33,652 bases of DNA. Origin: Rhizobium sp. Q54 (GTDB taxonomy: Bacteria; Pseudomonadota; Alphaproteobacteria; UBA2966; CAIVPW01). Positions 5,965 through 22,906 of this stretch are shown here, in pieces (position 1 is the first letter of the stretch; each line of letters begins with the position of its first letter). The DNA lies in contig CAMDCA010000023.1 of NCBI GenBank assembly GCA_945889645.1, forward strand, positions 1 through 33,652. Direction: 5' to 3'. Under the pieces are notes generated by a model that saw only the letters and a list, made by a program, of their open reading frames with translations, made no database searches and had not been told where the DNA came from. The position numbers and the translations under genes are program-made.

Positions 5965-7194
5965 TTATGCGTCCACGACAAGGGCGATCTGATGGAGGTC
6001 AATGCTGCGCGCCCGGAATGCGCCCTCGCAGTACGCAAGGTAAAAGTCCCACAAACGACGGAAACGCGCATCGAAGCCAAGCGCTCCGATGTGCGGCAAT
6101 GCTGCCCGGTATCGTGTCCGCCACTCCGCGAGAGTGCGCGCATAGTGCTGGCCGTAGCGCTCGTCGGCGGCGATACGAAAACCGGCGTCCACCGCGCCGC
6201 CCGCAAGCTTGGAGGGCGACGGCAGCATTCCGCCGGGGAAGACGCGAGTCTGGATGAAGTCCGGGTCGCGGCGATATTCATCGAATAGCGCGTCGTCGAT
6301 GGTGATGACTTGGAGCGCCGCCCGACCGCCCGAATTCAGGAGCGAGCGAAGGCCGCGAAAATACTGCGGCCAATAGGCCTCGCCGACCGCTTCAATCATT
6401 TCGATGGAGACAATGTGGTCGTACTGGCCCACAAGCTCACGATAGTCCGCTAGGCGGAGTTCAACGCGATCAGCCAATCCTTCGGCCCGCACCCTGGCGC
6501 GTGCCCACTCGAACTGCTCGCGAGACAGGGTGACGCCGGTAACACGCATACCGCTCCGCGCGGCAGAACACGCAAAGCCACCCCATCCGCACCCGATCTC
6601 CAGGATGTGTTGGCCCGGTGTCGCCTCGAGAAGATCGAGCATGCGCCGGCACTTCTCCTCTTGGGCTGCCGCCAGTGTGCTGTCATTCTCCGCGTAAATT
6701 CCGGAGGAATAGGTCATGCTCGGGTCGAGCCACAGGGCATAGAACTCGTTGCCGAGGTCGCAGTGCGCACTGACGTTGCGCTTGCTGCGCGTCCGCGTGT
6801 TGGCGTTTCGCACGTGGCGAAGTCGGGCCGCGACGCGCGCGATCAAGCCCCCGGCCAACGCGCCGGTCATCGCCTCGCGATTGCATGCGGCAAGCTCCAC
6901 CACCTTTGCCGGGTCTTCGCTGTCCCACTCGCCATCGAGGTAAGCATCCGCGAACCCGATGCCGCCATCCGTCACGAGCCGGTAAAGCGCCCTCCATCGG
7001 TGCACGGCGATTTGCGCATTAGGCCCGGGCAACGGCGCGTCAATTCGCTCGTGCGACCCGTCCGGTAGGGTGACCGAGAGGCTCCCGCGCCGCAGTTCGC
7101 GCCTCAGCACAGCTTTCAGGTGCGCGCGCGGCAGAACCGCTTCCGGGAGCAGCAGGCGCGCGAGCGGAAGGGGAAACGTGGTGGCAAAAGTCAT
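5965..7194 (-). CDS. Cyclopropane-fatty-acyl-phospholipid synthase-like methyltransferase
   Basis: 409 residues from ATG 7194. The N-terminal region (1-130) precedes the CFA core: VSAHCDLGNEFYALWLDPSM, TYSSGIY, the SAM motif LEIGCGWGGFA (about 198-208), and the acidic EMIEAVG. The tail EFYLAYCEG-like segment (DFYLAYCEGAFRARSIDL) is typical of the group. The family methylates or cyclopropanates unsaturated acyl chains using SAM; some members act in furan fatty acid formation. The usual HYDLGN motif has Cys for Tyr here. The track could be extended upstream, but the frame there is not protein-like and 7194 fits the family N-terminus. It is probably co-transcribed with the lipocalin. Confidence 0.88.
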   Translation of the reverse strand: MTFATTFPLPLARLLLPEAVLPRAHLKAVLRRELRRGSLSVTLPDGSHERIDAPLPGPNAQIAVHRWRALYRLVTDGGIGFADAYLDGEWDSEDPAKVVELAACNREAMTGALAGGLIARVAARLRHVRNANTRTRSKRNVSAHCDLGNEFYALWLDPSMTYSSGIYAENDSTLAAAQEEKCRRMLDLLEATPGQHILEIGCGWGGFACSAARSGMRVTGVTLSREQFEWARARVRAEGLADRVELRLADYRELVGQYDHIVSIEMIEAVGEAYWPQYFRGLRSLLNSGGRAALQVITIDDALFDEYRRDPDFIQTRVFPGGMLPSPSKLAGGAVDAGFRIAADERYGQHYARTLAEWRTRYRAALPHIGALGFDARFRRLWDFYLAYCEGAFRARSIDLHQIALVVDA

Positions 7195-7767
7195 GTCGTT
7201 GACCTGTCCTGTCCGGACGCGGGGTCGCTGTTGAGTGGTACGGGGGCGTTCGTTCGGTGGATCGCCGCCGAATGTCGGACGAGTGGCGGTCAAGTGGCGG
7301 TCTCGGAGAGGGTTGCGGACTTGCCGGAGTGTGGATGCACCCAGGCGCATGATGAATGAGTCAGTTGCTGGCTCAGCTCGAAAAGAAGGGCATGGTCCAA
7401 CGCCGTACGGGCTCCAAGGTGGCGGCCGGGAAGTCCCCGCCAGAGAAGGATTGGTCGGCGCTGCGCCCGGCCGACCAACATTGCGCCCGGACCACCAAGT
7501 GCAGGCAGTCCAGGCCGGCGAAGAGCACGGCGTCCGGCCGAACAACCCGCAGAAGCAGGGTAGGTCGGCGGTGGCCGTCACGTAACAACGGCTTACCGCT
7601 CTGCAGCGCACACGCCAACATACTACGTATACGAGGAAGCAGTAGCGCGGATCACCATAGCGCGCATTCCGGTGATCCGCCGGCCGTCCCGCGGCGTATG
7701 CAGAACCAGCGTACCGGTCGCCCGCGCGGGGGCGACCGGATACTTCGGCAGGGGAGCAGGGAATATC
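7195..7767. other. 573-bp stretch without a supported gene; repeats and likely element debris
   Basis: No frame here gives a recognisable protein. Features seen: a direct repeat of AGTGGCGGTC at 7282-7291 and 7293-7302, which resembles the internal repeats near ends of some IS elements; a perfect 10-bp inverted repeat GCGGATCACC/GGTGATCCGC at 7647-7656 and 7671-7680; and a GC-rich dyad CCGGTCGCCC/GGGCGACCGG at 7714-7739. Promoters for the CFA gene (minus) and the fused fragment at 7768 (plus) should lie here, but no convincing -35/-10 pair was found. Small frames such as the one on the minus strand ending near 7636 look protein-like but were not recognised. Confidence 0.5.
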
Positions 7768-8214
7768 GTGCGACGGATTGCGGTTGCGGGCGGCGGCGGC
7801 GGGCTTGCTGCGGCGTGGCTGTTGCCCCGGCGGTATGACGTGGCCTTGTTCGAGGCGAACAAGCGCGTCGGCGGACATGCCCACACTGTGCACGTACCCT
7901 GGCGCGGCGGGTCGGTTCCGGTCGATGTCGGTTTCATCGTCTACAACGAACCGACCTACCCGAACCTCGTGGCACTTTTCGCTGCCCTGGGCAGCAGGCC
8001 GGATTCCGCCACCAACGCGCGCTACGGAGAGCACTACGCGCGCACTCTCGCCGAGTGGCGGACCCGGTACCGAACAGCCCTGCCGCTGGTCGAGGCGCAG
8101 GGCCTCAACGGTCGATTCCGTCGGCTCTGGGAATTCTACCTCGCCTACTGCGAGGGAGGATTCCGGGCCGGCTGCATCGACCTCCGTCAGGTGGCGCTCG
8201 CCGTGAACCCCTAG
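7768..8214 (+). pseudogene. Chimeric remnant: FAD amine-oxidase-like N-terminus joined to CFA synthase C-terminus
   Basis: 148 residues from GTG 7768 (GGGGAGCAGG upstream). Residues 1-77 match the NAD/FAD-binding oxidoreductase found next to CFA genes: AAAWLLPRRYDVALFEANKR, VGGHAHTV, VPVDVGFIVYNEPTYPNLVA. From about residue 84 the sequence is CFA C-terminus: RYGEHYARTLAEWRTRYRTA, then RLWEFYLAYCEGGFRAGCID, about three-quarters identical to the end of the intact CFA at 5965. An in-frame deletion has therefore removed most of the oxidase, whatever lay between (DUF1365 in typical clusters) and the CFA N-terminus. The GxGxxG FAD motif is one residue short (VAGGGGGL), so cofactor binding is unlikely. 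An open frame survives but neither catalytic domain does. Confidence 0.78.
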
Positions 8215-8232
8215 CCCCCAAAGGACGACTCC

Positions 8233-8865
8233 ATGCGCATTTTGCACGCAGCCATGATGGTCTTGGCGCTCACCGTTGCCTCACCGGCCATCGCCCATAA
8301 GCCTTCGTTCAGCAACGGGCAGTACAGCGGTCCCGACCGCGCCTACCCGGTGCAGAACATCGACCACTCCATCGTCGTGTATCACGACATCACCTGCGAC
8401 AATCGCCAGCTGTGGCTGCGGTTCAGCGCGCCGGAAGCTGGGAAGGGGCTGTTCGTTCAACTCGGTGTTCCGACGATTGATCGACTGGAACGGTATCGTC
8501 CCACTCTCGCCGTTATCGCCCCGGGCCTGCCGTCCCCGCAGGGCCAACTGCCGTTCGCGATTCCGGCCGGAATGGGTGTCGAAGTGCTGAACGCCGAAAC
8601 GGCTCGAGCCTTCCGCGAGCCATTTACCGGAACGGATTCGTGGATTCTCGTCGAACGGACTTTGACGCTACCGTCTGCCGGTGTCGGCTACATCGTCGCT
8701 TGGGATCCGGACGTACGCCCAGGCAAACTGTGGGTCGCCGTCGGCGAGAAGGAATCGTTCGGCCTCGCGGACTTATTCCGGTTCGTCGGCTGGCGCGCGA
8801 GCGCAAGAGACTTCCACGAGGTCGGAGCGGCGCCAGCAGGCGGGCCCGCAGCGCCATGCGCCTGA
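8233..8865 (+). CDS. Exported protein of unknown function
   Basis: 210 residues. ATG 8233 has AAAGGAC in front. The signal peptide MRILHAAMMVLALTVASPAIA ends at AIA-HK. The mature part begins HKPSFSNGQYSGPDRAYPVQ and appears rich in beta strand, with SIVVYHDITCDNRQLWLRF, a FVQLGVPTIDRLERYRPTLA segment, then PFTGTDSWILVERTL and WDPDVRPGKLWVAVGEKE. The pattern looks like a conserved secreted family that I cannot name. No catalytic motif is evident and there is no C-terminal anchor. It follows the chimeric remnant by 18 bp on the same strand and may once have belonged to that operon; its frame is intact. Confidence 0.72.
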   Translation: MRILHAAMMVLALTVASPAIAHKPSFSNGQYSGPDRAYPVQNIDHSIVVYHDITCDNRQLWLRFSAPEAGKGLFVQLGVPTIDRLERYRPTLAVIAPGLPSPQGQLPFAIPAGMGVEVLNAETARAFREPFTGTDSWILVERTLTLPSAGVGYIVAWDPDVRPGKLWVAVGEKESFGLADLFRFVGWRASARDFHEVGAAPAGGPAAPCA

Positions 8866-9240: not shown

Positions 9241-10710
9241 CTAGCGCGGCGTGAAGCCGGCCGGGAACTTGGCGCCGTCGGTCTTCGCGCCATCAAATCT
9301 CGCATCGAGGAGCTTCGTGCCGGTGAGCAACGCACCGCGTAAGTCGGCGCCAGCGAAGTTGGCGCGCTGTAGGTCGGCATCTTCCATCTCGGCGCCACGC
9401 AAGTCGGCGCCGGTCAAGTCGGCGCCGTTGAGCAGCGCACCATACAGGACCACCTTCTCCGCCAGAGCATTGGTGAGGTCGGCGCGCTCCAGCCGCGCAC
9501 GATAGAACCAGGTGTTGTAGAGCGTCGCACCGCGCAGGTTGGCGTTGCCTAGGCGCGCTTCCCCCAGGTCCGTTTGCGTCAGGTTGGCGCCGGAGAGATT
9601 GGTCGTCAGCAGGTACGCCTTGCCCATCGCCGCCAAGGTGAAGTCCGCTCCGGCCGCGTTAGCCCCATCCAGGCGCGCCTCGTACGCCATGATGCCGCCA
9701 AGTTGCGCGTTGCTGAGGTCGGCACGGCGCAGGTCCGCCTTGTTCAGGTTGGCGCCGGTGAGGATCGCGCCTTGCAGTTTGGCGCCGGCCAGAATGGCGT
9801 CATGAAGGTTGGCGTCGGTGAGGTTCGCCCCCGCCAGGTTGGCGTTGCGTAGGTCCGCCCTCTTCAGATCGATGCCGGTCAGGTCGCAGCCGGGGCAATC
9901 GCGAGCCTTCAACGCCGGCGCGGACGGCGGCGGCTGCCAGTCCTGGTACCGCGCCGCCGTGGCGGCCCGGTTCACAATCTCAGCCGTCATGCGCTCGAGC
10001 AGACGCGTCTCGCTCCAGAACTGACCTTCGAGCGGAACCTCGCCCTGGACGCGTGGGTCGAACGCGAACTGTCCCGCCTTGCGGTAATAGTTTCCCTCCC
10101 CAACCAACGTGCGCCCCGGAGTTTCAGCGCGGCAGCGCTCCTTGATGAAGCGCGGGCCCGCGGCCGTCTCGTCCGCGGTCGGCGGCAGGCTCTCGCACTG
10201 GAATGCTGCATCGGCGTACAGCGACAGAAAGAAGCTCAGCATCGCCACCGAGCGGCGGCGCGTCTCGGTATCGGTGCGCGGGTCGGTGACGATGCGCAGG
10301 CCGGTCACGAATCCATCGTCGGTGAACAGTGCCGACACGACGACGGGATGGCTGAACACCATCGTGCCACCGAACACCTGGCCGCGCAGGTTGTTGGCTA
10401 GCGCCCAGTACTCGTCCTCGTCGTCGTAGCGGAAGTGGACCTCGTGCAGGCCGGTTTCCTTCTCGGCCCCGCAGCGCGCGTACTCGTGCCAGCCGGCAAT
10501 GGCCTGGGACGGTGGCCCGCCGTTGGTGCCGCAGGCGAAGTCGGTGAATTGCGCGTACGGCAGCTCGGCGAAGTGCCGCCCGAGCGGCCGGAGGTCCCAG
10601 ATCGACGGCTTGCCGGGCGCAACGCCGCCCGGTGCTGTCACCTGCGCCACGGCAACGCAAGCGCCGCCAACCGCCAGCAGCGCGGCAAAGACGGCCGCAC
10701 TCAGTCTCAT
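9241..10710 (-). CDS. Secreted four-cysteine domain fused to pentapeptide repeats
   Basis: 489 residues from ATG 10710. Signal peptide 1-23 (cleavage after VAQ). Residues 35-240 form a domain shared with the protein at 18647: [12 protein letters not shown] (about 59-66), [30 protein letters not shown] and EGQF. Cysteines at 60, 80, 172 and 193 are all conserved in that relative, suggesting two disulfides. A linker leads to DCPGCDL (about 271-277), then roughly 40 pentapeptide repeats (A[D/N]LxG type) to residue about 480, expected to form a right-handed quadrilateral beta helix. No function is assigned to the N-terminal domain. The start overlaps the upstream cytochrome stop as ATGA, so expression is coupled to a gene that is itself broken. 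Confidence 0.88.
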
Positions 10711-11097
10711 GGATAGCGGGCGCAGACCGGCGACGTCGGGCCGTAATAGTCTTGGCACACCGCGTTGGTGATGGGACCCTTGCCCACGACTTTGGCGAAC
10801 AGGTAGTCAACGACCGCGTCGATCTGCGCGTCTGAAAGAAACGTCTCGGCGTTGGGCGGCTTCTGGGTGCCGATCTGGGCGCCGTTCATTCCGAAGCACG
10901 CGACCGTCGCGTAGGCGTTTCTGCTGAAGTACGGCATCTCGCTGCCGGGCAGCCCGCACATCACGACCTCGCGCAGCGCCGCGCGATCGAGTGTGGTGAC
11001 CCGCAAGTTGGCGCCGGTGGGAAAGCCGGGACCTTTCGGCGCTCCGTGCCCTGCCCAGCCGTGGCACCGGACACTGGGCCTTCGCCAAGCGGCCGTC
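10707..11097 (-). pseudogene. Cytochrome c, 5'-truncated with disrupted haem motif
   Basis: The frame ending at 10707 contains RCHGWAGHGAPKGPGFPTGA, ALREVVMCGLPGSEMPYFSR (Met ligand region), [20 protein letters not shown] and a Cys-rich end ([16 protein letters not shown]), the plan of a single-haem c-type cytochrome. The first cysteine of CxxCH lies in another frame: restoring a GT dinucleotide near 11065 would give AQCVRCHG. No signal peptide or start was found upstream, and a stop precedes the preceding frame. The gene is therefore inactive as read, by decay or error. It directly precedes the pentapeptide fusion (ATGA overlap), as the intact cytochrome at 20180 precedes the other pentapeptide gene. 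Confidence 0.65.
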
Positions 11098-16066: not shown

Positions 16067-16555
16067 ATGGCTCTGATCACCCGCCGCCACTGGATTGCAG
16101 GAGCTGCTGCAAGCGTTGCGCTTCCGTCCGCGTTCGCGCCGCTGGCTGCCAGTGCAGCCGTGACCAACCTGAAGGTGTCCGACCTCTACGCCGGTGCCGG
16201 CGCGCTCTCGAAGCAAGCCACTGACCTCGAGGGCAAGGACGTACAGTTTCAGGGCTTCATGGCCCCGCCCCTGAAGCCCGACTCCAAGTTCTTCGTCCTG
16301 ACCACCATCCCGATGGCCGTCTGTCCGTTCTGCGCTGAGATCAGCGAATGGCCGGAAGACATCGTGGTCATCTACGCCAAGCGCGTCATCGAGACTGTGC
16401 CGTTCGATATCAAGGTCGCGGCAACCGGCAAGCTCAGCCTGGGCGAATGGATCGATCCGCAGACAGGATTTGTCAGCAAGGTTCGTGTGCTTGAATCCGA
16501 TTACCGGATGCTGCCGACGACCACCCAGGGCGGCATACGCGTCTTCCAGTTTTAG
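16067..16555 (+). CDS. Tat-exported DUF3299-like protein with CPFC motif
   Basis: 162 residues. The N-terminus LITRRHWIAGAAASVALPSA has a twin-arginine motif, so export in folded form, probably with cofactor, is predicted. The mature domain has VQFQGFMAPPLKPDSKFFVL, then PMAVCPFCAEISEWPEDIVV with two cysteines (86 and 89), and SDYRMLPTTTQGGIRVFQF at the end. It resembles small DUF3299-type proteins found with MacB/FtsX-like ABC permeases, one of which lies at 20719. The CPFC could bind metal or be redox active. The gene stands alone between a dyad and a terminator. The family call is from memory. Confidence 0.6.
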   Translation: MALITRRHWIAGAAASVALPSAFAPLAASAAVTNLKVSDLYAGAGALSKQATDLEGKDVQFQGFMAPPLKPDSKFFVLTTIPMAVCPFCAEISEWPEDIVVIYAKRVIETVPFDIKVAATGKLSLGEWIDPQTGFVSKVRVLESDYRMLPTTTQGGIRVFQF

Positions 16556-16755: not shown

Positions 16756-18555
16756 ATGACGAAGCATTCCCATCGGCTTCTGCCGATGATGCTGGCGGGT
16801 GTCGCCACCGTGGCTTTTGCGGTGCCGGCGTTCGCACAGAACGCCGCACCGGCCGCGCCTGCCGCACCGGCACCGGTCGCTCAGCTGCCGCCGGCAAACT
16901 ATACGCTGTCGGTCAGCAACGACCGCCTGCTCAACGCCGACAACGAGCCGCAGAACTGGCTCACCTCGAACCAGAATCTGAAGTCGTGGCGCTATTCGGG
17001 CCTGACTCAGATCAACCGCACCAACGTCGCCAACCTGAAGATGGTCTGGGCGATGTCGCTAGGCGGCGCCAATGACGTGGTGGGCAACAACGGCCCGAAC
17101 GTCATGTCGAACCCGCTGGTCGACAACGGTTTCCTCTATGCCAACTCCGAGTGGGGCCGCACCTTCAAGATCGACGTTCGCAATCCGAAACGCGGCGATC
17201 TGCTGTGGGTCAATGATCCGGCGATCATCCACACCGGCAACTCGTCGTTGACGCGCGGCATTGCCATGTACGGCAACGCCATCATCAACGCGACCCAAGA
17301 CGGCCGAGTCGTGTCGATCAACCGCGACAACGGCGAGTTGATTTGGGATCAACAGGTGGCAGTCACCAACGAGTGGGGCAGCCGCGAGCGCTTCAACAGC
17401 CAGCCACTGACGGTTGAAGGCAAGGCCATCGTGCAGAACGGCGCCGGCGACGGCGGCGCCAACGGCTGGGTCGCCGCGATCGACCTGACCAACGGCCGCG
17501 AGTTGTGGCGCTGGGAAGTGATTCCGCGTCCGGGCCAGCCGGGCGCCGAGACCTGGAAGGACATCGGCAACAACGCCTGGCAGCACGGTGGCGGCGGACT
17601 GTGGACGGTCGGCTCCTACGACAAGGACACCCGCAGCTACGTCACCGGCACCGGCAACCCGGTTCCGCAGTATGACGTCGAGTTCCGTCCGGGCGACAAC
17701 CTCTACACCGACGCCGCGGTCGCGCTCGACATCGATACCGGCAAGCTGAAGTGGTACTTCCAGTACACGCCGCAAGACGGCTGGGACTACGACGAGAACG
17801 GCATCCACCTGATCTACGACATCCCGGTGGACGGCACGATGCGCCACATCGTCGGTCATTTTGGCCGCAACGGCTTCTACTACAATCTCGACGGCCGTAG
17901 CGGCGCCTTCATCAACGCTGGCCTCTACGCCAACGAGATGAACTGGACGAAGGGCATCGACCCCAAGACCGGAAAGCCGGTTGAGTATCAACCGGGCTTG
18001 GCGGTTCAGACCTACATTCCCGCCACCCGCACCCTGCGCGGCGACCCCGCAGAGCGCGTGTGCCCAACTTGGCACGGCGGCCTGGCGCACCAGCCGCCGG
18101 CGTTCAACCCGGTCAAGCGCATGGTGTACTCGGTCGGCACCGAAGGCTGCTACACCCAGAACGGTGGCACGGGCGTCAACGCCACGACCGGCGCGATGGT
18201 CGGCCGCACGTTCAACTCCGACCTGTACTACGGCGGCATCACTGCCGTGGACGTGGTGACCAACAAGGTCGTTTCCAAGGTGTCGGTCCCGGTCGAGATC
18301 CGCTCCGGCGTTCTTGCCACGGCCGGCGGCTTGATCTTCACGACGCTGACCGACGGCGAGTTCGTCGCCTATAACGACGACACTCTGGAAGAGGTGTTCA
18401 GCTTCAACGTCGGCACGCCGCTCAAGGCGGGTCCCATGACGTTCGCAGTGAACAACAAGCAGTACATCGCGTTCCAGACCTCTGGTCTGCACGTGCATCC
18501 GATCCGTTTCACGGACCTGATGCACTCCAGCTACTTGTTCGTGTTCGGTCTCTAG
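16756..18555 (+). CDS. PQQ-dependent quinoprotein dehydrogenase
   Basis: 599 residues from ATG 16756 with GGAGGAG upstream. Signal peptide 1-28 (VPAFAQ-NA). The mature protein shows the beta-propeller of PQQ alcohol dehydrogenases: NPLVDNGFLYANSEWGRTF, GNPVPQYDVEFRPGDNLYTD with Asn 301 as metal ligand, and QDGWDYDENG (about 340-349) where Asp 344 corresponds to the catalytic base. Asp 346, two residues on, matches the extra carboxylate of lanthanide-dependent enzymes. The Glu ligand position appears as Asp (NGAGDGGANG). Only two cysteines (436, 465) occur, so the vicinal Cys-Cys ring of methanol dehydrogenases is absent. No haem motif: electrons would go to a separate cytochrome c, several of which are nearby. 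The substrate is unknown. Confidence 0.88.
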   Translation: MTKHSHRLLPMMLAGVATVAFAVPAFAQNAAPAAPAAPAPVAQLPPANYTLSVSNDRLLNADNEPQNWLTSNQNLKSWRYSGLTQINRTNVANLKMVWAMSLGGANDVVGNNGPNVMSNPLVDNGFLYANSEWGRTFKIDVRNPKRGDLLWVNDPAIIHTGNSSLTRGIAMYGNAIINATQDGRVVSINRDNGELIWDQQVAVTNEWGSRERFNSQPLTVEGKAIVQNGAGDGGANGWVAAIDLTNGRELWRWEVIPRPGQPGAETWKDIGNNAWQHGGGGLWTVGSYDKDTRSYVTGTGNPVPQYDVEFRPGDNLYTDAAVALDIDTGKLKWYFQYTPQDGWDYDENGIHLIYDIPVDGTMRHIVGHFGRNGFYYNLDGRSGAFINAGLYANEMNWTKGIDPKTGKPVEYQPGLAVQTYIPATRTLRGDPAERVCPTWHGGLAHQPPAFNPVKRMVYSVGTEGCYTQNGGTGVNATTGAMVGRTFNSDLYYGGITAVDVVTNKVVSKVSVPVEIRSGVLATAGGLIFTTLTDGEFVAYNDDTLEEVFSFNVGTPLKAGPMTFAVNNKQYIAFQTSGLHVHPIRFTDLMHSSYLFVFGL

Positions 18556-18579
18556 TCACGAACGGCTGAACGAAGTTGG

Positions 18580-18605
18580 GGCGGCCGGGAGCAATCCCGG
18601 CCGCC
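18580..18605 (+). terminator. Hairpin after the PQQ dehydrogenase
   Basis: GGCGGCCGGGA-GCAA-TCCCGGCCGCC, an 11-bp perfect stem 24 bp after the stop. No T-run follows (TCGGCATTTG), so it may be a weak terminator or an mRNA-stabilising hairpin. Confidence 0.6.
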
Positions 18606-18646
18606 TCGGCATTTGCGGAGCCTCGGCCGTGCGTTAGATTGCAGCG

Positions 18647-19399
18647 ATGAACTTGCGAAACCTCGCGCGCACCGGATTGACGGCCGGCGCAGTATACATG
18701 GCGGTCGCCCTGCCCGCCTCGGCCGCACGCCTTACGATCTGGGACCTCAAGCTCGGCACGCCCGTGAGCCAGATGCCGGCGTGGATCGAGTTCCGCGCCT
18801 ACGCCTGCGGCAGCAATGGCGGCCCGGTCCTCACACCGCTCAAGGGCTGGGAGGAGTTCATGCGCTGCCGGCCCGACGACAAGGGCCTGCACGAGGTCTA
18901 CTTCGAGTACGACGACGAGGAAGAATTCATCGCCCGTGCACTCGAGGACGGGCGCCTGGCGCGCAACGCCGGCACGGTGGACAAGCAGTTTCCGGTCGTC
19001 ACTTCGGCGCTGTTTGATGACAACGGCATCTTGCAGGCAGTGCGCCTGATCACCGATCCCCGCCCTGACTACAAGGTCGACAACTTCCTTGCCTTCCTGA
19101 AGGTGCGCGATGAGCACTACCTCTACGGCGCGTTCATCACATCGCAGTTCAGCATCACGATCGCGCGCGACTGCAAGCGACTAGAGCTTGCCGAGGGTGA
19201 ACACGATATCGGTGGCCAGTTCACCAAGCTCGATTGCGAGCGGATCGACGAGGCACAGCGCAAGCGCTACGTCGTGCAGGTGCGCTACTACCGCAAGCCC
19301 GGCCAGTTCGAACGCGACCCAACCACGGGTCAACCGACCGAGGGTCAGTTCGAAAGCCAGACACGTGCCGAGGTGTATTGGCTCGGGCCGGCGCGCTAG
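18647..19399 (+). CDS. Secreted four-cysteine protein, stand-alone copy of the domain in 9241-10710
   Basis: 250 residues. A signal peptide (cleavage near ASA-ARLT, about 27) precedes a domain that aligns end to end with residues 35-240 of the pentapeptide fusion: IWDL, YACGSNGGP (52-60), GLHEVYFEYDDEEEF, SALFDDNG, RLITDPRPDY, YYRKPGQFERDP and EGQFESQTRAE. Cysteines 54, 73, 175 and 197 match the four of the fusion, so two conserved disulfides are likely in the periplasm. No fold or function is known to me. It lies between the PQQ dehydrogenase and a convergent pentapeptide gene (4 bp gap). The paralogue's fusion to pentapeptide repeats argues that these two neighbours interact. Confidence 0.82.
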   Translation: MNLRNLARTGLTAGAVYMAVALPASAARLTIWDLKLGTPVSQMPAWIEFRAYACGSNGGPVLTPLKGWEEFMRCRPDDKGLHEVYFEYDDEEEFIARALEDGRLARNAGTVDKQFPVVTSALFDDNGILQAVRLITDPRPDYKVDNFLAFLKVRDEHYLYGAFITSQFSITIARDCKRLELAEGEHDIGGQFTKLDCERIDEAQRKRYVVQVRYYRKPGQFERDPTTGQPTEGQFESQTRAEVYWLGPAR

Positions 19400-19403
19400 C
19401 CGA

Positions 19404-20174
19404 TCAAGGAATTACGGTACCGTCCGGCATCATCGTGCCGGCAAGTTTGACCCCGTCGAGCGGCGTCCCGACCATGTCGGCCTGACGCAGGAGCGATCGG
19501 CTGAAATCGGCGCCGGTGACCGTGGCGCCGCGGATGCTGGCCTTGCGCAGATCAGCGTCGGTCACCATCGCCCGCGTCAGGTTGGCCTGATTCAGGTCTA
19601 CCAGGGCCAACCCCGCGCCGCTGAGGTTGGCGCCCGTCAGATTGACGCCGCGCATCTGCGATTCTTCCATCCATGCCTTTGTCAGGTTGGCGCCGCTGAG
19701 GTCGGCAAGCGCCATGCGAACCTGGCGGAAATCGCTCTGCGTCAAGTCGGCGCCCACCAGCTTGGCGCGCGTCAGGTCGGCCGTGCGGCCAATGACCCGC
19801 GTCAGGTTGCTGTTGGAGAGGTCGGCCTGGCTCATGCGCGCCGCGTACGCCATGGCGTCGGTCATGTCGGCGCCGATCAGCTTAACGTTGCGCAGGTCGG
19901 CCTTGTTCAGGTTGGCGCCCACTAGCACCGCGCCCGTAAGGTCGGCGCCCATCAGCTTGGCGTCGTGGAAGTTGGCCTCGGTGAGGTTGGCGCCGGCAAG
20001 GTTGGCGTTGGTGAGGTCGGCGCGCTTGCGGTCGACCTTGGTCAGGTCGCATTTTGGGCAGTCGTTGGTGCGCCCGGCAAGGAAGTCCTCGCGCGGGTCG
20101 GCAAGCGCGGGCGCGGCGATCCCGGCGCTGACACCGACCGCGACCGCGAAGCCAAGGCGAGCGAGACGGCGCAA
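19404..20174 (-). CDS. Secreted pentapeptide-repeat protein
   Basis: 256 residues. The start is TTG 20174, six bases after the cytochrome stop; the signal peptide (cleavage after ALA-DP, about 26) supports it. Residues about 36-245 are pentapeptide repeats, opening DCPKCDLTKVDRKRADLTNA and including [20 protein letters not shown]. The opening C-x-x-C and first repeats closely match the fusion protein at 9241, so the two are paralogues. A beta helix of about 40 repeats is expected in the periplasm. It is downstream of, and almost certainly co-transcribed with, the cytochrome c gene at 20180. It is convergent with the four-cysteine protein. Confidence 0.87.
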   Translation of the reverse strand: MRRLARLGFAVAVGVSAGIAAPALADPREDFLAGRTNDCPKCDLTKVDRKRADLTNANLAGANLTEANFHDAKLMGADLTGAVLVGANLNKADLRNVKLIGADMTDAMAYAARMSQADLSNSNLTRVIGRTADLTRAKLVGADLTQSDFRQVRMALADLSGANLTKAWMEESQMRGVNLTGANLSGAGLALVDLNQANLTRAMVTDADLRKASIRGATVTGADFSRSLLRQADMVGTPLDGVKLAGTMMPDGTVIP

Positions 20175-20179
20175 GGGTC

Positions 20180-20587
20180 CTACTTCGGGATGATCATGTT
20201 GGCCGGGGGCGGGCCGTCGAGCGGCTTGTCGCCGGCCGGAACCTTATTGAACTGCAGGATGTAGGCGATGATGTCGGCGTAGGTCTGCGGCGACAGCGTG
20301 CTCGGCTTGTCCTGAGGCATGTACATGAAGGCGAAGTCGTACAGATCCTTCACCGTGCCGCCCTTCCAGGTTTGGACGAAGCGCGGGCCCGACAGCGCCG
20401 GCGCCTCGAGCAGCCCCTGCAGCGTGTCGCCATGGCAGCTCTCGCAGCTGGCGGCGTAGGCTGACTTACCACCGCCTGCCTGGCCGTCGGTGTAGACCAC
20501 CGGAACGGTCTGCGCGAGCGCTGAACCAGCGACGACGGTTGCGGCAAAGGCGAAAACGGAACGCGTCAGGATCGAGATCTTCTTCAT
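20180..20587 (-). CDS. Monohaem cytochrome c
   Basis: 135 residues with a signal peptide (SVFAFAATVVAGSALAQ) and one haem site, SCESCHGDTL (CxxCH). The likely axial Met is in FMYMPQDKPSTL. The C-terminal part, TYADIIAYILQFNKVPAGDK, is shared with the cytochromes at 22020 and 22469, so the three are paralogues. It should be a soluble periplasmic electron carrier, a fitting acceptor for the PQQ dehydrogenase, though direct pairing is inferred from location. ATG 20587 has GAGGGG upstream. The pentapeptide gene follows directly. A promoter candidate lies about 25-55 bp upstream. Confidence 0.9.
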   Translation of the reverse strand: MKKISILTRSVFAFAATVVAGSALAQTVPVVYTDGQAGGGKSAYAASCESCHGDTLQGLLEAPALSGPRFVQTWKGGTVKDLYDFAFMYMPQDKPSTLSPQTYADIIAYILQFNKVPAGDKPLDGPPPANMIIPK

Positions 20588-20611
20588 AGGCCCCTCGGAA
20601 AATGGCCCGGC

Positions 20612-20641
20612 TATGTAGCGGTCGCCCGCCGGTAGCGTCAA
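20612..20641 (-). promoter_or_regulatory. Promoter candidate for the cytochrome-pentapeptide operon
   Basis: On the minus strand TTGACG (20641-20636), 18 bp, TACATA (20617-20612), ending 24 bp upstream of the ATG at 20587. Both hexamers are near the sigma-70 consensus although the spacer is long. Confidence 0.5.
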
Positions 20642-20655
20642 TCTTGCGCGAAAGT

Positions 20656-20671
20656 GCCGCAAAATTGCGGC
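20656..20671. promoter_or_regulatory. Palindrome in the divergent cytochrome/permease region
   Basis: GCCGCAA-AA-TTGCGGC, seven-base arms with a two-base centre, 14 bp upstream of the -35 of the cytochrome promoter and about 50 bp upstream of the permease start. The position suits an activator or shared regulator site. The protein is unknown. Confidence 0.35.
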
Positions 20672-20718
20672 GCGGCCGCGGCGGCAAGCCATAGTTGGTG
20701 GGCCGCCGATTGGCTATC

Positions 20719-22014
20719 ATGGCCCTGCCTATGCCGAATCCCCTGCCCGTCATCGCCGCCGACTTCAAGCAATCCCGCGCCGGCATTGTCGCGGTCATTG
20801 CGCTGATCGCGTTGGCGGTGGGCCTCGGCGTTGGCGTCTCGGCGCAGGAGCGCGCCTTTCGCGAAGGCAGCACGCGGGCAGCCGATGCCTTTGACCTGCT
20901 GATCGGGGCGCGCGGCAGCGAAACCCAGCTTGTTCTGTCGAGCATTTACCTACAGCCGAGTCCGCTCGATCTTGTCGAGGGCGCGGTGCTGCAGGACCTG
21001 ATCGACGACCGCCGGGTGCAGTTCGCCTCGCCGATCGGTTTCGGCGACAGCTATCGCGGTTATCCGATCGTCGGTGTCACCGGCGCCTTCGTCGAAAAGA
21101 ACACCGGGACCGTCACACAGGGCACTCCGTTCCGGGCGATCAACCAGGTGGTGATCGGCGCCGACGTCGCACTGCAGGTTGGCGAGACGTTCGTGCCGAC
21201 CCACGGGCGCATCGCCATGGTCGAGGGCGCCGACGAGCACGCGCACCTCGCCTACCGCGTGGTCGGACGCCTGTCGCGTCTTGGCAATCCGTGGGACCGC
21301 GCCATTCTGGCGCCGATCGAAGCGGTGTGGTGGGTCCACGGCTTGCCCGTTGGCCACAAGGGGTATGAGGACCTCTATGACCTCGGCGAAGCGCACGAGG
21401 CCGGTGCGGTGCGCGACCACACGGACGCCGAACTGGAGGCGCTGCCGTTGGGGCCGCCGTTCGATCGCGCCTTGCTGCCGGGCGTGCCGGCGATCGTCGT
21501 GAAACCGGTGTCGTTCGCGGCGGCGTACCAATTGCGCCAGCAATACCGCACCGACGATCGCACCATGGCGTTGTTCCCCGCCGAGGTGCTGCTGCAGATC
21601 TATTCGCTGGTCGGCGACGTGCGCGACCTGCTCGCGGTCATTTCAGTCATCACGCAGGTGCTGGTGGTTGGCGCGATCCTGCTGGCGGTACTCGCCGCCC
21701 TCGCCCTGCGGCGCAAGACCATCGCGGTGCTGCGCGCCATGGGCGCCTCGCAGGGGTACATCTTCCTGACGGTGTGGCTGAACGTGACGCTGATGATCGC
21801 CATCGGCGCCGTGCTCGGCCTCGGCGTAGGCTGGGGCACGGCCAAGCTGCTCTCGGCCGTGTTCGCCAGCGGCACCGGCCTGGTACTGCCGGTCGCCTTG
21901 TCCTTCCAGGAATATGCCCTGGTCGGAACCATCATCGGGATCGGCGTGCTTCTGGCGGCGATCCCGTCGCTCCTGACCTACCGCCAGTCCGTGTCGGCAG
22001 CGCTCCGCCAGTAG
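20719..22014 (+). CDS. FtsX/MacB-like ABC transporter permease
   Basis: About 431 residues; ATG 20719 was chosen, and ATG 20731 is nearly as good, since neither has a clear ribosome site. An N-terminal helix (AGIVAVIALIALAVGLGVGV) is followed by a periplasmic domain of about 230 residues, then three C-terminal helices (LLAVISVITQVLVVGAILLA, IAIGAVLGLGVGWGTAKLL, YALVGTIIGIGVLLAAI), the FtsX-like plan with the cytoplasmic LRRKTIAVLRAMGAS coupling segment. It needs an ATPase partner, none of which is in the window. Mechanotransmission or lipoprotein export is usual for the type. It is divergent from the cytochrome operon and ends 5 bp from the convergent cytochrome at 22020. Confidence 0.82.
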   Translation: MALPMPNPLPVIAADFKQSRAGIVAVIALIALAVGLGVGVSAQERAFREGSTRAADAFDLLIGARGSETQLVLSSIYLQPSPLDLVEGAVLQDLIDDRRVQFASPIGFGDSYRGYPIVGVTGAFVEKNTGTVTQGTPFRAINQVVIGADVALQVGETFVPTHGRIAMVEGADEHAHLAYRVVGRLSRLGNPWDRAILAPIEAVWWVHGLPVGHKGYEDLYDLGEAHEAGAVRDHTDAELEALPLGPPFDRALLPGVPAIVVKPVSFAAAYQLRQQYRTDDRTMALFPAEVLLQIYSLVGDVRDLLAVISVITQVLVVGAILLAVLAALALRRKTIAVLRAMGASQGYIFLTVWLNVTLMIAIGAVLGLGVGWGTAKLLSAVFASGTGLVLPVALSFQEYALVGTIIGIGVLLAAIPSLLTYRQSVSAALRQ

Positions 22015-22019
22015 CCTCC

Positions 22020-22406
22020 CTACTTCGGGATCGTGCCGGGCGGATCGATCACCAGCGGCATCGGGCTCGCCGGCACGCCGTTGAGCTTCAGAATGTGCGC
22101 CATGATCAGGACGTAGGTTTCCTTCGGCAACGTGCCCGGTTCGTCGTACGGCATCGCGTTCGACATCTTCTCGTACAAGGCCTTGGCGGCCTTGCCGCCG
22201 AAGTCCGTCTTGAACTTCTCACCGACGAGCGGAGGTCCCTCGCCCCCGGTGGCATTGGTGCCGTGGCACTTGGCGCAGGACGACTTAAAGGCGTCGTTGC
22301 CGCGCTGTGCCTGGGCGTCGGTGTAGGTAACCGTCTGCGCCGAGGCCGAACCGGCGGCGGCGATCAACAGGGCTGTCGCCCCGTAAACGAACGTGCGGAT
22401 GTGCAT
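22020..22406 (-). CDS. Monohaem cytochrome c
   Basis: 128 residues. Signal peptide MHIRTFVYGATALLIAAAGS (cleavage near ASA-QT), one haem motif SCAKCHGTNATG, Met ligand in SNAMPYDEPGTL, and the shared tail ETYVLIMAHILKLNGVPASP. Closely related to the genes at 20180 and 22469. GGGGAAGGA precedes the ATG. It follows the 22469 cytochrome by about 60 bp on the same strand, so the pair is likely one transcript. It is expected in the periplasm as an electron carrier. Confidence 0.9.
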   Translation of the reverse strand: MHIRTFVYGATALLIAAAGSASAQTVTYTDAQAQRGNDAFKSSCAKCHGTNATGGEGPPLVGEKFKTDFGGKAAKALYEKMSNAMPYDEPGTLPKETYVLIMAHILKLNGVPASPMPLVIDPPGTIPK

Positions 22407-22468
22407 GGAAACTTATCCTTCCCCGGGCGGGACTATCCCCCCGCGCGCGATGGCGAGGGGATCACATC

Positions 22469-22906
22469 CTAGCGACGACGCTGGATCAGTAGGTTGGCGG
22501 CCGGGGCGATCGGGAACGGTTCGTCGCCGGCGGGGATGCCGTTGAACTGCATGATGTACGCCATGATGTCGGAGTAGGTTTCCTTAGGCAGTTCGCCCGG
22601 CTTATCGAACGGCATGTTCATGACCATGAAGTTCCACTTGCCGATGACCGGGCGGCCCAGCCACTGCGAATTGAACTGGTCGGCGGCGAGCGGCAGCGCG
22701 CGGTCCCCGTCCCCCTCCATTTTGTCGCCGTGGCAGCCGGAGCAGGCGTCGGTGTAGGCCTTCTTGCCGCGCTCGGCCTGTGCCGTGGTGTAACTGGCAA
22801 CCGGCGATGCCTGCGCGAACGACTGGCCGGCGGCCAGAACACCGGCGAGGACTACCATCGCGGCGGAGAGGAGTACGGCATTCGGCGAATTCGCTTGTTG
22901 ATTCAT
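22469..22906 (-). CDS. Monohaem cytochrome c
   Basis: 145 residues. A signal peptide or anchor (LLSAAMVVLAGVLAAGQSFA) leads to YTTAQAERGKKAYTDACSGC with the haem motif CSGCH, a likely Met ligand in VMNMPFDKPGEL, and ETYSDIMAYIMQFNGIPAGD. It carries an extra loop before the Met compared with its two paralogues. The ATG at 22906, with GGAGAG upstream, is only 15 bp from the stop of the MBL hydrolase gene. The cytochrome pair is therefore probably the tail of the long housekeeping transcript, or it has its own promoter inside the MBL gene. Confidence 0.9.
   Translation of the reverse strand: MNQQANSPNAVLLSAAMVVLAGVLAAGQSFAQASPVASYTTAQAERGKKAYTDACSGCHGDKMEGDGDRALPLAADQFNSQWLGRPVIGKWNFMVMNMPFDKPGELPKETYSDIMAYIMQFNGIPAGDEPFPIAPAANLLIQRRR

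Follow-up and report, generated by a model that had tools for sequence, protein, structure and literature searches.

Gene content of the locus

The present analysis concerns a 6.2-kb locus within a stretch of 33,652 bp from Rhizobium sp. Q54 (assembly GCA_945889645.1, contig CAMDCA010000023.1), the whole of which is referred to as the window. The locus encodes a quinoprotein, i.e. a dehydrogenase of the pyrroloquinoline quinone (PQQ) type, a four-cysteine protein designated 4C in the following, a pentapeptide-repeat protein, three cytochromes c and a permease. This gene set had been proposed in a first-pass annotation made from the letters of the window, and all of its members are present as open reading frames at about the places given there, with Pfam assigning PQQ, Pentapeptide, Cytochrome_CBB3 and FtsX domains to the products:

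16756..18555, + strand: PQQ-type dehydrogenase resembling the methanol/ethanol family, predicted to be secreted (PF01011, E = 3.5e-50)
18647..19399, + strand: 4C protein, predicted to be secreted, with exactly four Cys; founder of an unnamed family
19404..20174, - strand: pentapeptide-repeat protein, predicted to be secreted, with the N-terminal cap DCPxCDL (PF00805, E = 4e-50)
20180..20587, - strand: monohaem cytochrome c (PF13442; one CxxCH), preceding the co-oriented pentapeptide gene by 5 bp
22020..22406, - strand: paralogous monohaem cytochrome c (PF13442; one CxxCH), 43% identical to the preceding one
22469..22906, - strand: paralogous monohaem cytochrome c (PF13442/PF00034; one CxxCH), 38-40% identical to the other two
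20731..22014, + strand: FtsX/MacB-type permease (PF02687, E = 9.5e-12), accessory of one cassette subclade

The cytochromes are indeed paralogues, as had been claimed, since they share pairwise identities of 38-43% and each contains a single CxxCH within its cytochrome c domain, as is characteristic of class I monohaem cytochromes c. Inspection by eye reveals signal-peptide-like N-termini on all products except the permease, which is consistent with the export postulated for them. The quinoprotein, 4C and permease genes are located on the + strand, while the pentapeptide gene and the three cytochrome genes occupy the - strand. The set therefore cannot be one transcript, which rules out a single operon.

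Conservation of the gene set

To our reading, the locus is very probably one copy of a cassette which occurs in multiple copies and variable order and which constitutes a functional module. This view is based on a neighbourhood comparison for which related genomes were searched with the 4C protein, long flanks were fetched and named genomes were scanned, leaving 114 distinct 4C domains after removal of duplicates. The collection scan used a 16-member subset of the 4C alignment, the full alignment being too divergent. The genes turned out not to be randomly associated elsewhere. Within 6 kb of 4C, a quinoprotein is encoded in 106 of the 114 cases, a pentapeptide protein or fusion in 104 and a cytochrome in 96, with all three present in 86; as cytochrome detection relied on a single profile and on CxxCH in short open reading frames, some of the apparent absences may be missed genes. 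Among the 54 4C domains with full flanks the corresponding numbers are 50, 52, 42 and 41.

The genome containing the window (G000) harbours nine 4C genes in 2.33 Mb. Seven of these have a quinoprotein gene within 6 kb, while the chance expectation is about 0.07 per site (P about 2e-7, calculated on the assumption of random placement and of independence, the latter being violated by duplicated cassettes). In G007, 4C neighbours each of the eight close quinoproteins and none of the distant ones. 4C thus follows one quinoprotein subfamily, and it is probably a dedicated partner of this enzyme.

The set recurs, with shuffled order and strand, in metagenome-assembled genomes from lakes and the sea as well as in Devosia, Maritimibacter, Bauldia, Chelativorans, Rhodopila, Beijerinckiaceae and Xanthobacteraceae. 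Its presence in named isolates, namely Devosia insulae, Maritimibacter alkaliphilus, Rhodopila globiformis and Chelativorans sp. J32, makes it amenable to experimental testing. 4C was found in 8 of 385 genomes of a class-level sample and in 5 of 399 genomes of a phylum-level sample, both being lower bounds as few candidates were scored per genome; by kinship to the window all hosts are Alphaproteobacteria. No plasmid match to 4C was obtained. Other Alphaproteobacteria encode more divergent 4C homologues in compact quinoprotein-cytochrome-4C operons.

The 4C family and its pentapeptide partner

Neither sequence nor profile searches of Pfam, NCBIfam and the PDB yielded a match for the 4C protein. 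The AlphaFold model is confident (pLDDT 84.9) and of mixed alpha/beta architecture; no fold in the PDB matches it at E<=0.001, so that membership in a known family is rejected for the libraries searched. Four Cys residues are invariant across 49 aligned members, which share, with small changes, the motif ACGxNGGP; the protein of the window contains both. Those remote members which were read also keep the four Cys, except for L197, whose frame ends early. Two disulfide bonds would be expected to form from these residues in the periplasm.

The partner of 4C shows the tandem A(D/N)LXX repeats characteristic of PF00805 and is expected to fold into a beta-helix, as borne out by the fold match of a relative encoded elsewhere in the window (see Locus A). 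Fused and unfused partners across the cassettes have the special cap DCPxCDL ... GANLAGANL in common. Hence, judged by their sequences, the cassette pentapeptides represent one distinct subtype rather than random repeat proteins.

In 34 of the 114 cases, 4C and the pentapeptide domain form one polypeptide. The 4C tree implies at least five changes between the fused and the separate state, four of them forced by well-supported branches, as compared to about 30 with shuffled labels. In addition, the distances between quinoproteins correlate with those between the accompanying 4C domains (Mantel r about 0.74 for 101 cassettes), a value which partly reflects species relatedness. Within one genome, species history cannot explain co-divergence of partners. 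There, r amounts to 0.75 in G000 (p 0.0025), 0.80 in G007 (p 0.001) and 0.89 in G006 (p 0.0075), while it is lacking in G001 (r -0.09) and borderline in G002 and G004. The co-divergence of 4C with the cytochrome is about as strong as that with the quinoprotein. As a rule, though with exceptions, the members of a cassette thus diversify together.

Locus A

A second site of the window, Locus A, comprises the following genes:

9241..10710, - strand: 4C-pentapeptide fusion protein of 489 aa (4C domain, followed by pentapeptides, the latter recognised by Pfam)
10707..11011 (upper bound approximate), - strand: remnant of a cytochrome c without the first haem Cys; no CxxCH; ATGA overlap with the fusion gene

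The N-terminal half of the fusion protein is a 4C homologue with about 38-40% identity to the protein encoded at 18647, meaning that two separate neighbours of the main locus are united here in one polypeptide. Its AlphaFold model (pLDDT 86.6) displays the expected pentapeptide beta-helix, with HetL (3du1, E = 1.3e-12) as fold match. The first-pass annotation had described Locus A as repeating the order of cytochrome and pentapeptide genes with a 4-bp overlap. The overlap exists, as ATGA at the stop codon at 10707, but the pentapeptide gene is a 4C-pentapeptide fusion and the cytochrome, unlike the three of the main locus, has no CxxCH. Since, moreover, it resembles an intact cytochrome of this genome, encoded on contig C87, only from within the haem motif onwards, it is to be regarded as a truncated remnant, which sits between the fusion gene and groES. 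No quinoprotein gene is present at Locus A. On account of this and of the truncated cytochrome, Locus A is, as judged from its gene content, a truncated and decayed cassette copy rather than a second intact module. In the intact related loci L051 and L059, the coordinates of the cytochrome and fusion genes reveal an overlap by the same four bases (ATGA).

The quinoprotein and PQQ supply

The quinoprotein of the window matches the methanol/ethanol family model TIGR03075 over nearly the whole model length with 368.5 bits, which is below the curated cut-off of 480, and can be classified from this match as a divergent relative of that family. Its closest solved relative is PedH (6zcw, E = 9e-64). 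The Asn of the GTGN motif at the metal site is retained, as is the catalytic Asp together with the additional Asp associated with lanthanides (WDYD pair), while the metal-ligand Glu is replaced by Asp. The vicinal Cys-Cys pair is missing in this protein as well as in most cassette copies, and present in some. Elsewhere, the active-site residues of cassette quinoproteins range from fully conserved to strongly altered. Comparison of a cassette quinoprotein from Devosia with solved structures again returned PedH as closest.

The second-best NCBIfam match of the window quinoprotein is TIGR04528 (acido-empty-quinoprotein group A) with 295 bits, far below the cut-off of 650. As PqqC and PqqE are encoded in G000, an enzyme left empty by a host devoid of PQQ is not supported for this genome. 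In G007, which is 98% complete and contains eight close quinoprotein cassettes, no match to PqqC or PqqE exceeds the cut-off, and the same holds for G003. Either PQQ uptake from outside or an assembly gap may account for this.

Comparison with known systems

The periplasmic assembly proposed in the first-pass annotation was considered undescribed, which appears to hold for a part of it. The link between pentapeptide protein, quinoprotein and cytochrome is of an already known kind, since the Pseudomonas genes for the pentapeptide protein PedD, the quinoprotein PedE and the cytochrome c550 PedF adjoin one another (PMC12997753). PedD is an uncharacterised, alcohol-induced protein whose truncation impaired growth with short-chain alcohols (PMC12997753), and its level drops together with that of PedE under lanthanum on some substrates (PMC7188995). 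In contrast, no description of the 4C family, of its fusion with a separate subtype of pentapeptide protein or of the paralogue-by-paralogue amplification appears to exist in the libraries and open-access papers covered. Within the open-access literature on pentapeptides in connection with quinoproteins, lanthanides or Devosia, only the ped papers proved relevant.

The ped/exa clusters and the cassette thus have in common that genes for a quinoprotein alcohol dehydrogenase and a monohaem cytochrome c are accompanied by one for a secreted pentapeptide protein. In addition, the ABC genes for PQQ-dependent alcohol catabolism (TIGR03861/3863/3864/3866) which accompany ped/exa occur at some 4C loci, although none was seen in the window. 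Nevertheless, the 15 PedF loci read contain neither 4C nor the 4C-associated cytochrome type, and the PedD-like pentapeptides present at four of them have caps unlike that of the window and the other cassettes. The window cytochromes reach at best 18.7 bits against the PedF model TIGR04494, whose cut-off is 122. Hence, we reject an assignment of the window to the ped clusters. To our knowledge, there is no cassette-by-cassette amplification of ped. In L220, L223, L224 and L234, PedD-like pentapeptides encoded beside a quinoprotein show a similar N-terminal stretch, C(P/A)xADLRGADL, together with a C-terminal CxxCPxxW.

Among further systems, the lanthanide enzymes PedH/ExaF and XoxF resemble the window quinoprotein in the extra Asp, but the latter differs in lacking the vicinal disulfide, in its Glu to Asp exchange at the metal site and in its score below the TIGR03075 cut-off. 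From TIGR04528 it is set apart by its low score and by the PQQ synthesis genes of its host. HetL, Qnr and MfpA share the right-handed quadrilateral beta-helix with the cassette pentapeptide, which, in contrast, is predicted to be exported, bears the CPxCDL cap, is fused to or encoded beside 4C and has no gyrase-related context.

Proposed function

As a whole, these observations are best explained by a cassette for periplasmic alcohol (or aldehyde) respiration in which 4C and the pentapeptide protein act as a docking or scaffold subunit, an interpretation to which we assign a probability of roughly 0.45. The PQQ-type dehydrogenase would oxidise an alcohol (or aldehyde) in the periplasm, its electrons being taken up by one or several monohaem cytochromes c dedicated to it. 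4C would be a disulfide-stabilised periplasmic accessory dedicated to its quinoprotein and would work together with the beta-helix of the pentapeptide protein, about one cassette in three encoding the two as a covalent fusion. Together they would hold quinoprotein and cytochrome in place, each paralogous cassette possessing its own matched set. A docking or scaffold role is favoured because 4C follows both the quinoprotein and the cytochrome, is copied with each paralogue and sits on a rigid helix; taken by itself, this specific role is put forward tentatively. With still more reserve it may be speculated that the 4C-pentapeptide unit is a structural subunit fixing the quinoprotein-cytochrome c complex, and that aquatic Alphaproteobacteria with small genomes have duplicated this assembly up to nine times for different alcohols.

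Several observations weigh against the docking interpretation. The cassette genes of the window are split over both strands, co-divergence fails or is marginal in three of the genomes and, over all cassettes, owes part of its strength to kinship of the hosts. In genomes of 6-9 Mb, the remote 4C operons have no pentapeptide gene nearby, which can therefore be dispensed with in some cases. Metal-ligand residues are missing from part of the cassette quinoproteins, so that maybe not all of them are ordinary enzymes. Finally, docking and dedicated maturation fit the observations almost equally, nothing observed separating the two.

Dedicated maturation, the nearest rival, appears somewhat less likely to us. 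Accessory proteins such as those of the MxaJ/XoxJ type are thought to act in quinoprotein maturation. Correspondingly, the 4C-pentapeptide unit might fold the apo-quinoprotein or load PQQ and calcium or a lanthanide, while standing outside the electron-transfer complex. An own 4C copy for each quinoprotein paralogue is what a specific chaperone would demand, and the majority of cassette quinoproteins, which lack the vicinal disulfide and carry Asp instead of Glu at the metal site may need special help. Likewise, the ped review places PedD under maturation and activation (PMC12997753). The ATGA overlap of 4C and cytochrome genes in L051 and L059 as well as the co-divergence of 4C with the cytochrome, however, favour an electron-transfer assembly, and a generic factor would not require up to nine copies per genome.

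Considerably less probable is a role of the 4C-pentapeptide unit in substrate handling or at the cell surface, i.e. in capture, transport to the dehydrogenase or matrix and biofilm formation, with the permease and ABC genes belonging to it. PedD is predicted to be extracellular with a speculative tie to biofilm (PMC12997753), and ABC genes of the PQQ alcohol system and a gene for a secreted SNase-like protein recur beside some cassettes, yet both are absent from the window and from most cassettes, while a quinoprotein gene is nearly always present. Linkage without functional contact, by which whole cassettes were duplicated or transferred as blocks, is highly improbable, for although genomes clearly contain duplicated cassettes (G000 with its nine 4C genes) and co-divergence would follow from block duplication alone, such duplication explains neither the conservation of content despite reshuffled order, strand and spacing nor the at least five fusion/separation changes joining the same two partners.

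If a 4C-pentapeptide unit indeed holds quinoprotein and cytochrome together, it would add a novel type of subunit to periplasmic alcohol respiration. As pentapeptide proteins encoded beside quinoprotein alcohol dehydrogenases have so far had no defined role (PedD), the specific but unnamed partner domain repeatedly fused to such proteins provides a concrete and testable lead. Nine 4C genes in a 2.3-Mb genome suggest that oxidation of many alcohols makes up a large part of the ecology of this aquatic lineage.

Accessory and neighbouring genes

The permease had been counted among the parts of the module. Homologues of it are, however, confined to L031, L033, L156 and L158, so that it is an accessory of one small subclade and not a core member of the cassette. 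No ABC ATPase was found near it by motif search, the window containing no ABC ATPase motif pair. A further gene is probably an accessory of the same FtsX subclade:

16067..16555, + strand: Tat-signal-like protein, predicted to be secreted, with a CPFC motif; no Pfam family

Homologues of this protein are encoded beside FtsX and quinoprotein genes in L031 and L156 (L156:889-1554), i.e. also in distant genomes.

The SNase-like secreted protein recurs near 28 other 4C loci (e.g. L163:8457-8981), including those of Devosia and Maritimibacter. Genes for a MotA/ExbB-like protein and for two membrane proteins not assigned to any family (L071:5412-6209, L132:9735-10391, L121:9907-10494) recur in 12-16 4C loci, with Maritimibacter, Devosia and Chelativorans among the hosts. 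The open reading frame at 7672-8214 of the window resembles, as judged by eye, an FAD-dependent amine oxidase at its start and the cyclopropane-fatty-acid synthase of 5965-8247 at its end, and appears to be what a deletion has left of two genes, now joined.

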